Assembly (NCBI GenBank): GCA_029261155.1
Contig: JAJDBW010000011.1
Location: 1 to 58,950, forward strand
Direction: 5' to 3'
From: Nitrospirota bacterium
GTDB lineage: Bacteria > Nitrospirota > Nitrospiria > SBBL01 > JAADHI01
DNA length: 58,950 nucleotides
Shown: in pieces, positions 44,263 through 58,950 of the stretch
Position numbering within the stretch: position 1 is the first letter of the stretch
Layout of the letters: every line of letters starts with the position of its first letter
Position numbers and translations under genes: made by a program
Notes under the pieces: generated by a model
Told to the model about the DNA's origin: nothing
Databases searched by the model: none
Seen by the model: only the letters and a program-made list of their open reading frames with translations

Positions 44263-44349
44263 GGGCGCGTGGCGGAATTGGTAGACGCAGCAGTCTCAAA
44301 AACTGCCGGGGGTAACCTCATGCCGGTTCGATTCCGGCCGCGCCCACCA
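44263..44349 (+). tRNA. tRNA-Leu (anticodon CAA)
   Basis: An 87-base class II tRNA. The acceptor stem GGGCGCG (44263-44269) pairs with CGCGCCC (44339-44345), followed by A and an encoded CCA. The D-arm contains GGTAGACGC. The anticodon stem GCAGT/ACTGC holds the loop CTCAAAA, giving CAA. A long variable arm lies before the T-arm (CCGG-TTCGATT-CCGG). It would read UUG leucine codons. Confidence 0.95.
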
Positions 44350-55791: not shown

Positions 55792-56916
55792 TTACTGTAT
55801 GGTGAGGTTTTGATCGCGGGTGGGGGCGCCAGCGGCATCCCAAAGGCCGTCATTAAAGGCATAGCGGTAGTTGATGATGCCGTCGCCTGCCTTTTCCAGA
55901 ACGACCGTGGCGAAGTAGGCTTTTCCATCTGTATAATCCAAGTCGGCCGCATCGACGGCCTTCATTGCAAAACGCTCGCTTGTGGTGGGATTGGGTGCAG
56001 TGGGAGAGGGCAAAGCGCCACCGCTTCCGCTACTGCAGCCCTTGATGAAAGCGAGGAGAAACAAAATTCCAAAGAAGAGGCCGATGCCGCGCCGCGTCCA
56101 TCCTTGTGATGCTTGGGTTTTTAAGAAGAAGGCCAGCCCCAATAACAAAGTGGCGCTCATCGCCAAAAGGACATTCCCTGATGTCGGGGGAAGCGCGGAA
56201 GCGGGGCTTATGGTTTTAGCGGCCAAGACGCCTTCCGCGAATGCGCCATCGTCGTTTCGGTCGATCCAGAGCTCGGCGGTGCTGGGGGGATCGTTGTCAA
56301 AATCGGTGTAGGTGACTTTGAAAGTGAATGGGTCCCCGCCTTGGCCGATCTCAGGATCGACGCCCGTGTTGGCACCGGCGCTCCAGGTCAGGGCCGGGGC
56401 GGGATTGTGCAAGGAGACCGTTTGATCGGCGGCGATATTTTCGGAGATCACCGCCGATCCGTCTGGCCAAACCACACGTAGGGTATCGACGGTGAGGGCG
56501 GCCCCGAGGCCAAAATGGGGCTCTACCGGATCTTGTGAAACATAGTTGCTCCCTGCCCGTAATTCCTGCATTTGCGTTGTCGTTCCAGTGGTCACATAGA
56601 CCCGCGCGCCGATGGCTTCTGTGTTTGGCGCGTGGCCTTTAATTTTGAGCTTGAGATAGTGAAGGCCGTTGTTGATCTCATTCTGATAGAGACGAGGCAG
56701 TTGTTGGTTATTGGCGATAAAAAGGTCGAGGTCGCCGTCCCGATCGTAATCGAAGCAGACCAGGCCTCGGCCTTGACCGGTGTCGTCCACCCCGAGCGGG
56801 TTGGCCTGTTCGCTAAAGGTCCCATCTTGATTGGAGACAAAGAAGCGGGCCGGATCGTCGTGAAAATCGATGAGATGGTCTCCTCCCACTTCCATAACGG
56901 CGTCACAATGCGCCAT
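55792..56916 (-). pseudogene. 3' part of an ASPIC/UnbV FG-GAP protein, truncated by an IS element
   Basis: The sequence begins inside an FG-GAP/VCBS-type repeat: LIDFHDDPARFFVSNQDGTF, then GLVCFDYDRDGDLDLFIANNQQLPRLYQN with a calcium-loop D-x-D-x-D. The ASPIC/UnbV domain follows (~90-172: LKLKIKGHAPNTEAIGARVYVTT, HFGLGAALTVDTLRVVWPDGS). Residues ~195-374 hold an Ig-like domain split by a ~90-residue insert with two membrane segments (see findings). The usual N-terminal half of several hundred residues is absent: the reading frame runs upstream into the IS110-family element, and nothing similar appears on its far side. The fragment is probably non-functional. Confidence 0.78.
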
Positions 56917-56959
56917 GATGGGAGTGAATATTCCATCAAACAGAAGCGGGAGGAGAGAG

Positions 56960-57994
56960 ATGAAGATTACAACGATTGGACTGGACTTGGCAAAGAACGT
57001 TTTTCATGTGGTTTGTTGTAACGAGCGCGGCAAGCAAGTGAAGAGAAAAAAATTACGTCGCTTTCAGATGTTAACGTATTTTTCGAATTTTCCGACTTGC
57101 CTCGTGGGAATGGAAGCTTGCGCCGGCGCACATTACTGGGGCCGAGAACTTCGAAAGCTGGGGCATGAGGTCCGATTGATTCCAGCACAGCATGTAAAAC
57201 CTTATGTCAGAGGGCAAAAGAACGATTACAACGATGCTGCTGCTATAGCTGAAGCCGTGACACGACCAGCGATGCACTTTGTTCCGATGAAGACGGTGGC
57301 GCAGCAAGATATTCAGGCACTCCATCGAATACGAATGGGCCGGATCAAAGAACGGACGGCGCTATGTAATCAATTACGGGGTTTATTGAGTGAATACGGG
57401 TTGGTTCTCCCTAAAGGTGTCAACGTGCTACGCAGTCGGTTGCCGGACTTATTAGAAGACGCGGAAAATGGTTTGAGCGATCTGTTCCGCCCATGGTTGG
57501 CCGAAGCCTACCGGCAATTGCAGGAATTGGATGAGCGTATCGACTATTACAGCCAAGCCGTTAAGCTGCATAGCAGTCGAGACGAGGCCTGCCAGCGTCT
57601 GCAAAAAGTTCCGGGATATGGCCCCATCGTAGCGAGTGTCTTTGTGAGTCAGGTCGGAAGTGGGGAAGGCTATCGTCGCGGCCGGGATGTTTCTGCCTCT
57701 CTTGGCTTGGTTCCGCGACAACACAGCAGTGGCGGTAAAAATGTATTATTGGGAATCAGCAAACGAGGTGATTGCTACCTCCGTAGCTTATTGATTCATG
57801 GTGCCAGATCTGTTGTTTCACATGCCGAGAAAAAAAAGGACCGGTTGAGCCTATGGATTAACCGGGTTCGGGAAACGCGAGGTTTTAATAAAGCGTCAGT
57901 CGCCCTGGCCAATAAGCTTGCACGCATCGGCTGGGCGGTCCTGGCACATAAGACAAGCTACCAGCTCTTCCGAACCCAGATCAAAGAAGGGTAA
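56960..57994 (+). CDS. IS110-family transposase (DEDD)
   Basis: IS110-family enzymes are RuvC-like DEDD recombinases guided by a bridge or seek RNA. The N-terminal domain has TIGLDLAKNVFHVVC (Asp9), CLVGMEACAGAHYWGREL (Glu), and KNDYNDAAAIAEAVTRP (Asp pair). The C-terminal Transposase_20 domain has LQKVPGYGPIVASVFVSQVGSGEGYRRGRDVSASLGLVPRQHSSGGKNVLLGISKRGDCYLRSLLIHGARS, including the catalytic Ser region. The true start is ATG 56960 with AGGAG upstream; the ORF extends 30 codons further without coding character. Length is 344 residues. The gene appears intact. Confidence 0.93.
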   Translation: MKITTIGLDLAKNVFHVVCCNERGKQVKRKKLRRFQMLTYFSNFPTCLVGMEACAGAHYWGRELRKLGHEVRLIPAQHVKPYVRGQKNDYNDAAAIAEAVTRPAMHFVPMKTVAQQDIQALHRIRMGRIKERTALCNQLRGLLSEYGLVLPKGVNVLRSRLPDLLEDAENGLSDLFRPWLAEAYRQLQELDERIDYYSQAVKLHSSRDEACQRLQKVPGYGPIVASVFVSQVGSGEGYRRGRDVSASLGLVPRQHSSGGKNVLLGISKRGDCYLRSLLIHGARSVVSHAEKKKDRLSLWINRVRETRGFNKASVALANKLARIGWAVLAHKTSYQLFRTQIKEG

Positions 57995-58140
57995 GAGTCA
58001 GTCTGAAAGGGAAGAAGGGACCTACCCAAGATTGCGAAGGCTATAACGAGCGATGACAAAACAGGTTAGACCGGCGTATCTAAAACCTGACGCATTCGAA
58101 GGTCACAAAGACCGCATTATCGATTAAGGAAGATACGCGC
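57995..58140 (+). ncRNA. Candidate IS-encoded guide (seek/bridge) RNA region
   Basis: The 3' noncoding end of the element folds into several local stems. CAGGTTAGA (from 58062) pairs with TCTAAAACCTG (to 58089) with a small bulge. GGTC (58101-58104) pairs with GACC (58110-58113). GCGTATCT (58074-58081) can pair over a longer range with AGATACGC (58131-58138). IS1111-group elements carry their guide RNA downstream of the transposase. I infer this from position and structure only. Confidence 0.4.
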
Positions 58141-58443
58141 TGATTTCATCGAGGCCAGAGGCACTAACTATCCTCAGACATTTTAGGCCGGATATACGAC
58201 TGCAACCCTGTCCCTGTTATCGCCAAAAAAAGCCTTGCAATACGGGAGGAGACCATATACGAGTGCGGTCTTCCAGCGCAAAGGGAAGCCTGAAATATCG
58301 GATGCGGCTTTTGTTGGCGGGATACTGGAAGACTTTGCGATCGAAAGCACTCGGGTAGCATTGTCGCAGCACAAGACCTTCTCGGGAGTTGTTCGGGTCT
58401 TGGGTGAATAGACAATGAAGGCCTCAGGGTCAAGAGAGTTTCT

Positions 58444-58950
58444 GTGATTAAGAAGCCCCGCGATCGGGCCCTCATCCTTATACTTTTGAGGACAGGGATG
58501 AGGATCGGTGAGCTTTTGAATACGCGGGTCGTGGATCTGGATCTTCGGGACAAAAAGATCCTCGTTTATGAAGGAGAGAAGACCAGTCTTGGTCGTGTGG
58601 TCTATCTGAGCGATGATGCCCTATTTGCAATCAGACTCTGGCTCTCTAAAAGAGATCGGGAAAAGACCTTTCTCTTTTATGGCTGGGGAGACAAACTCGG
58701 GTATAGCGCCGCCCGCTTAATCTTCGTTAAATACCTCAGGAAAGCAGGGCTTGAGAACAAAGGATATACGGTACACTGCCTTCGGCACACCTTCGCGACC
58801 GAATTACTCAATGCCGGCATGCGACTGGAGTGCCTGCAGCAGCTTCTCGGTCACTACCACATCGAGATGACCCGCCGCTATGCCCGCTTAACGGACAAGA
58901 CCCGTGAAGAAGAGTACTTCCGGGCCATGGCGCGCATTGAGCAAGGAGGG
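58444..58950 (+). pseudogene. Tyrosine recombinase (phage-integrase family) catalytic domain, partial
   Basis: The frame is open from 58408 to the right edge. It contains the family catalytic residues: Arg in RTGMRIGELL, His-x-x-Arg in HCLRHTFATELL, His in LLGHYH, and Tyr in TRRYARL. It therefore encodes the catalytic half of a XerC/D-like or integron-like recombinase. The N-terminal core-binding domain is not in this frame: a TGA at 58405 lies just upstream, and the preceding ~400 bases show only possible remnants. So the copy is either truncated or frameshifted, unless its N-terminus was lost by the IS insertion. It continues beyond the window. Confidence 0.72.

Follow-up and report, generated by a model that had tools for sequence, protein, structure and literature searches.

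The element at the right-hand end of the DNA studied here is a complete IS1111-type jumping gene, apparently with its own guide RNA, and is very probably an autonomous insertion sequence (IS) whose targets are chosen under the guidance of that RNA. The DNA, a window of 58,950 nucleotides from a Nitrospirota bacterium (GCA_029261155.1, contig JAJDBW010000011.1), is the entire contig C3 of a genome of 3.56 Mb in 90 contigs. By sequence comparison, we have assigned the ends of the element, its intact open reading frame, an RNA structure based on covariation, and matches of the guides both to insertion flanks and to the element's own ends; from these we infer transcription, RNA-protein binding, circle formation, and strand exchange. 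The element is a new example within the RNA-guided IS1111 type that has already been described. Its features are listed in Table 1.

Table 1. Features of the IS1111-type element and its flanks in window coordinates; guide assignments and promoter are predictions.
Feature	Positions	Strand	Basis
Left flank: 3' part of UnbV/FG-GAP gene, 5' part on contig C2	55792-56867	-	ORFs, Pfam, frame joining
IS1111-type insertion sequence, 1,392 bp	56868-58259	+	contig-end copies in same genome; subterminal inverted repeats (sTIR) and 7/3-bp extensions
Left 7-bp extension CGATGAG; bases 1-3, CGA, putative recombination core	56868-56874	+	common to left ends of C3, C13, C79
Left subterminal inverted repeat ATGGTCTCCTCCC	56875-56887	+	repeat comparison
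DEDD transposase (putative RNA-guided recombinase), 344 aa	56960-57994	+	ORF list, Pfam, 12-protein alignment
Guide (bridge/seek) RNA, predicted, minimal span	58031-58241	+	between closing-helix arms 58031-58042 / 58231-58241; covariation
Segment X (CGATGACA), left-end-like; can pair with right donor guide or 58215-58222	58051-58058	+	
Target-loop stem, 5' arm	58074-58081	+	covariation
Right target guide (RTG) GACGCATTCG, complementary to CGAATGCGTC	58089-58098	+	guide-flank matching
Hairpin between target guides, GGTC/GACC	58101-58113	+	4 of 4 pairs changed on both sides, 14 sequences
Left target guide (LTG) GCATTATCGA	58114-58123	+	guide-flank matching
Target-loop stem, 3' arm	58131-58138	+	covariation
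Right donor guide (RDG) TTCATCG, predicted to pair with left end CGATGAG, one G-U	58145-58151	+	
Donor-loop stem GGCC/GGCC (58153-58156 / 58186-58189), inner GAGG/CCTC hairpin	58153-58189	+	covariation
Left donor guide (LDG) ATATACGA, identical to right end plus core	58192-58199	+	
-35-like TTGCAA, 17 bp from junction hexamer TACGAT formed on end joining (predicted)	58235-58240	+	
Right subterminal inverted repeat GGGAGGAGACCAT	58244-58256	+	repeat comparison
Right 3-bp extension ATA	58257-58259	+	
Target copy of core, CGA	58260-58262	+	common to four right flanks
Right flank, most likely of another insertion site; tyrosine recombinase ORF cut by contig end	58263-58950	.	ORFs, Pfam, frame joining

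Ends and coding capacity of the element

The original prediction placed an intact IS110-family element at 56900-58165. The element is real, but this interval starts 32 bp too far in on the left and stops 94 bp short on the right, so that the donor guide at 58192-58199 and the right inverted repeat fall outside it. The ends are fixed by other copies in the same genome, together with the inverted repeats and the published rule that extensions of 7 bp on the left and 3 bp on the right, outside the sTIR, define IS1111 ends (PMC11187229; this source and PMC11208160 are cited throughout for the parts consulted). These other copies are contig ends (left ends on C13 and C79, right ends on C5, C72, and C2) with about 140 bases in common with the IS, and the common sequence starts with ATCGATGAG on the left and stops with ATACGA on the right. 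Other copies do not end before the 3' region.

The arrangement between and around these ends is that of the IS1111 group. The sTIR pair is 13 bp long with zero mismatches, where 11-13 bp is expected, and is followed outward by extensions of the expected 7 bp (CGATGAG) and 3 bp (ATA). The long non-coding region downstream of the gene spans 57995-58259 (265 nt), and within it the complement of the target top strand (RTG, from 58089) precedes the match to the bottom strand (LTG, from 58114), which is the IS1111 order. There is no target duplication: the left flank on C3 and the right flank on C2 form an unbroken frame of 746 codons with zero extra bases.

The transposase is intact, as predicted, with an ATG start codon at 56960 and both of the Pfam domains found in IS110/IS1111 transposases (DEDD_Tnp_IS110, E 1.3e-18; Transposase_20, E 5.5e-20); it thus combines the RuvC-like N-terminal domain and the PF02371 C-terminal domain of this family. 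Five residues, D9, E52, D89, D92, and G258, are invariant in the alignment of 12 proteins, and we take the first four to be the DEDD residues of the enzyme. The sequence GLVPRQHSSG in the C-terminal domain fits GL-P----S(t)G, the motif of the IS1111 C-terminal domain (PMC11187229). The nearest proteins (L018-L022) show 64-72% identity among the matches listed, from which records of the own genome were perhaps excluded; four of these five records carry gammaproteobacterial names, and the remaining one is labelled simply as a tubeworm endosymbiont. No close copy was found in the seven other genomes of the genus or family that were searched (best match E 1.7e-7), which fits a recent acquisition of the IS. 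In a sequence search for solved relatives, the sole one of this kind was the transposase of ISCro4 (PDB 9t56), presumably an IS110-group bridge recombinase; the relationship is distant (E 2.1e-4), with only the C-terminal part, residues 212-329, aligned.

RNA structure and proposed pairing with the element's own ends

Relatives of the element provide the comparative evidence for the RNA. Of 309 found, 80 were taken, which with 8 from viral contigs and the element of the window made 89; of these, 5 were dropped for having no inverted repeat, 3 for lacking a flank at a contig end, and 19 for failing the repeat filter. The remaining 62 were reduced by similarity to 49 representatives, the window included. 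RNA covariation was scored on an alignment of 14 of these 49 elements (A1); a wider alignment, A2, contains 26.

An 8-base pairing of 58074-58081 with 58131-58138 had been predicted in the 3' region; it is letter-perfect, and closes the predicted target loop. We rejected the stem alone as evidence, as 23% of 500 mononucleotide shuffles of 57995-58262 contain a perfect 8-bp stem. Folding energy was rejected in the same way, being near the shuffle level both for 57995-58262 (z -2.1, with 9 of 200 shuffles equally good) and for 58060-58230 (z 0.1). The evidence for the pairing is its covariation in relatives, where seven of its eight pairs are changed on both sides. Across the 3' regions of 14 related elements, including that of the window, 21 of 44 predicted pairs have compensatory changes. 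A hand-drawn structure of 47 pairs is paired in 92.5% of cells in the same number of sequences, and 23 of its pairs are changed on both sides. In 500 shuffles such pairs numbered 12.7 on average and never reached 23, and they numbered between 7 and 18 when the structure was slid along the alignment. Rfam searches of the whole window at gathering thresholds returned a tRNA at 44263-44346 only and no family at the guide RNA, and a short motif that was sought in the window gave no match. This covariation, together with the guide matches to flanks and donor junction described below, bears out the proposal of a structured guide RNA in the 3' region.

We consider it probable that the RNA reads the element's own ends. 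The donor loop is complementary to the junction of right and left ends at eight of eight positions on the left and six of seven on the right, the seventh being a G-U pair; the full complement of the left end would be CTCATCG. The anticipated match between guide loops and donor junction is thus present, and the complementarity of a donor loop to the element's own ends that is expected of a bridge RNA is found here as a predicted pairing. A less probable reading, although one to be taken seriously, is that the RNA picks the target only, while the protein recognizes the ends through their inverted repeats and the donor-loop matches are structural or inherited. In favor of this reading, the inverted repeats are long and common to the relatives, and an ISEc11 mini-IS was moved with an 82-nt seekRNA in which target matches were sufficient, according to the part of PMC11187229 drawn on here.

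The two donor guides bear on this choice to different extents. For the LDG, 47 of 49 elements show identity between the triplet that follows a conserved CCGRAT-like anchor and the right-end triplet, itself external to the inverted repeat; the agreeing triplets are ATA, AGA, GTA, ACA, and AGG, the exceptions are L076 and L103, and in rows with several anchors the triplet-agreeing, homologously placed one was used. The right-end triplet occurs in seven types and needs six changes on the transposase tree, in which L098 was translated across a frameshift, making its place artefactual. By our reading of the tree, four of these six changes were followed by the RNA and two (L076 and L103) were not. 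Such agreement outside the repeat argues against an RNA that reads the target only.

The evidence on the RDG is divided, as this guide also forms one arm of a helix inside the RNA, with segment X as the other arm, a point in favor of a structural origin for its matches. The RDG letters were counted in 47 of the 49 elements (L071 and L103, to which no motif was assigned, were excluded) and those of X in 44 of these; X was picked by hand among candidates by its place in the alignment, and that of L037 was taken from A1. With G-U pairs included, the RDG is paired to position 7 of the left end in 42 of 47 elements and to position 6 in 44; Watson-Crick pairs alone number 33 and 42, where shuffles give means of 24.5 and 23.4. 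Segment X repeats the first six left-end bases (CGATGA), and most of the 44 elements retain its pairing with the RDG. For letter 1 of the RDG, a pair with position 7 of the left end is present in 42 of 47 elements and a pair with X in only 2 of 44, which again speaks against the target-only reading. For letter 6 the pairing counts are 38 of 47 (left end) and 42 of 44 (X), and for letter 7 they are 18 of 47 (left end), which is the shuffle level, and 34 of 44 (X). The X-RDG pairing is present in 100% of cells with one of five pairs changed on both sides, and competes with a helix of 58051-58058 with 58215-58222, which is paired in 80.9% of cells with two of eight pairs changed on both sides. 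The RDG therefore seems to serve both the internal helix and the donor. Covariation is clear for the LDG, and supports the RDG as well, with its signal shared with the internal helix.

A joint permutation test of both donor guides was significant, with an observed score of 596 compared to a permuted mean of 534 (sd 6.8, maximum 560, 10,000 permutations). Only 7 of 49 elements beat every different donor, as related elements have donors in common, and the covariation of the donor guides is partly shared ancestry. A wobble-tolerant version of the score (669 vs 638.8, sd 4.7, maximum 655, strictly best in 3 of 49) was weaker than the exact version and was set aside. With these points weighed, reading of the ends by the RNA is still the account that we favor.

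Insertion flanks and target guides

An UnbV gene had been proposed as the flank of the IS, and this is true of the left side alone. Joined at CGA to C2, the UnbV frame gains 388 codons upstream (746 in total), of which the C2 portion reads as FG-GAP-like repeats; joined to the right flank in the window it gains 120 codons, to C5 21, and to C72 6. A genome of the same family (G004) aligns across the UnbV/C2 junction without a gap (115 of 175 identical). In another genome, G002, the UnbV match is split in two, and that genome has some 70 additional bases near the junction (query residues 33-35), so that this genome does not fix the length of UnbV at that point. By frame joining, the right flank in the window (58260-58950) is evidently not the partner of the UnbV left flank, and among the ends on C13, C79, C5, C72, C2, and C3 only the left and right partners of UnbV could be paired up.

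The uninterrupted frame of UnbV and C2 means either that contig C3 is chimeric at the IS or that IS copies have recombined. The second of these, in which the joint of flank, IS, and flank on C3 is genuine and UnbV was split by recombination between two copies, we think unlikely. As the genome contains further ends of the IS (three or more on the right, two or more on the left), recombination between copies would be possible, and a mixed population could contain both arrangements; against this, contig C2, from the same bin, begins with the other half of UnbV, and it stops about 140 bases inside the common stretch, like the other four broken ends, as is expected from short-read assembly. The genuine-joint reading concerns the flanks alone, and is compatible with an RNA-guided IS. 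More generally, flanks of repeated elements in assemblies can be mispaired, which spoils tests of guides against flanks.

Other features of the flanks were noted in passing. The tyrosine recombinase ORF at 58444-58950 has similar stretches on C4 (96% identity) and C67 (82%), which suggest a repeated integrase in this genome. By eye, the IS copy on C13 adjoins a frame resembling a LuxR-type regulator.

The target guides, which begin 25 nt apart, were compared with the flanks of all the copies. The window's own two contig flanks match the guides at 13 of 20 letters, a score equalled by 14 of 48 foreign flank pairs; as the right flank is not the true partner this pair is a poor test, and we rejected it. 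A 9-letter match between the reverse-complemented right flank of the window and 58108-58116 is out of register with the guides and was taken as chance. On the left, the guide matches C79 at 9 of 10 letters, C13 at 7, and UnbV at 6; on the right, C72 at 9, C2 (UnbV) at 8, C5 at 7, and the window's right flank at 7 plus 2 wobbles. Taken together, these three left and four right flanks of the own genome match at 32 of 49 non-core letters, whereas 2,000 random sets averaged 22.0 and reached 30 at most. Seven non-core letters were scored per flank, all positions of the region were searched, and the null consisted of random CGA sites from the window. The best score is at exactly the RTG and LTG positions, and with the window's right flank left out it is 28, against a random maximum of 26. 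The loops thus show the complementarity to flanks that had been proposed, and for the seven flanks together they do so better than for any of the random sets, although the UnbV left flank itself is a weak match. Eight intact sites WWATCGARTGCG are left in the genome, and one with the pattern reversed.

The 49 representatives give the same result. The cognate flanks sum to 709, compared to a permuted mean of 601 (sd 6.9, maximum 628, 10,000 permutations), and to 498 against 450 (sd 5.4, maximum 469) when only non-core letters are counted; in 40 of the 49 the guides score best at a spacing of 24-27 nt. In only 20 of the 49 elements does the cognate flank outscore every other flank. When it is compared to the flank belonging to the element whose RNA is most similar, it scores higher in 28, the same in 11, and lower in 10 (Wilcoxon p 4e-4). 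By these flank tests the target loop is complementary to both strands of the target, as is expected of a bridge RNA. That the 3' structure is simply the untranslated region or terminator of the mRNA, with guide matches due to chance, is highly improbable given the helix covariation, the guide-flank permutation tests, and the own-genome flank test, even though the folding energy is near that of shuffles and 8-bp stems are common by chance.

A subgroup of the relatives carries the triplet AGA (AGT in L076) and, by eye, sits in similar flanks across many different bacteria, as if it targeted one conserved gene. Its members are L050, L054, L055, L057, L058, L061, L063-L067, L069, L072, L075-L078, L085, L086, L088, L091, L092, and L099-L101.

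Proposed mechanism and relation to known systems

We propose that the DEDD recombinase would act with an RNA encoded in the 3' non-coding region of the element, and that one loop of this RNA would pair with both strands of the target ATTATCGA|ATGCG, the predicted target site for insertion being ATTATCGAATGCG. The second loop would pair with the joined ends of the excised circle, the LDG with the right end and the RDG with the left end. Recombination would take place inside the CGA core that is common to donor and target, with no duplication beyond this core. Joining of the ends would create the promoter TTGCAA-17-TACGAT, from which recombinase and RNA could be transcribed. The chemistry of recombination and the processing of the RNA are taken from published work (PMC11187229; PMC11208160, 2024).

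The putative promoter fits the published junction promoter (PMC11187229). At fixed spacing, 4 or more of 6 positions agree with TATAAT in the junction hexamer of 47 of 49 elements and with TTGACA in the upstream hexamer of 38 of 49, and the core is YRA in 47 of 49, all three counts being without a shuffled control. The core occupies positions 3-5 of the junction -10 box. Two further proposals are doubtful when taken jointly: that the promoter would restrict targets to YRA cores, and that segment X may be the RNA's own decoy of the left end, pairing with the RDG. As a decoy, X would keep the donor loop shut until displaced by the real end or by the helix of 58051-58058 with 58215-58222. If true, this would give the RNA a switch of its own between searching for targets and joining the donor.

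On sequence evidence this is a well-resolved IS1111 system, with exact ends, both target guides, both candidate donor guides, and three left and four right insertion flanks. Its relatives provide a covariation test, within the IS1111 group, of guide against flank and of guide against own ends, and the latter is relevant to the question of what reads the ends in this group: RNA, protein, or both. A search of titles and the starts of abstracts, with bioRxiv and most subscription journals outside its scope, found no later experimental work on IS1111 RNA.

The closest described systems are the ISEc11/seekRNA elements of the IS1111 group (PMC11187229), which likewise have a DEDD transposase of 330-350 aa, sTIRs, 7/3-bp extensions, a 3' non-coding region, an RTG before the LTG, no duplication, and a joined-end promoter. 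The target and guide letters differ here, and the donor loop indicated by covariation in our alignments does not feature in the consulted part of that work. The bridge RNA of IS621, from the IS110 group, is similar in its two loops, its LTG/RTG and LDG/RDG pairs, and the presence of the core in all four pairings (PMC11208160); in that group the RNA lies in the left end and the end repeats are of 2-3 bp, whereas here the RNA is downstream of the gene, the repeats are of 13 bp, and an internal pairing competes for the RDG. The same bridge-RNA work predicted donor pairing for the IS1111 group (PMC11208160). Its predicted RNAs for six IS1111-group elements, ISPa11 among them, resemble the one described here in their position in the right end and in their predicted binding of both target and donor, with the donor nucleotides in a multi-loop in many of them.
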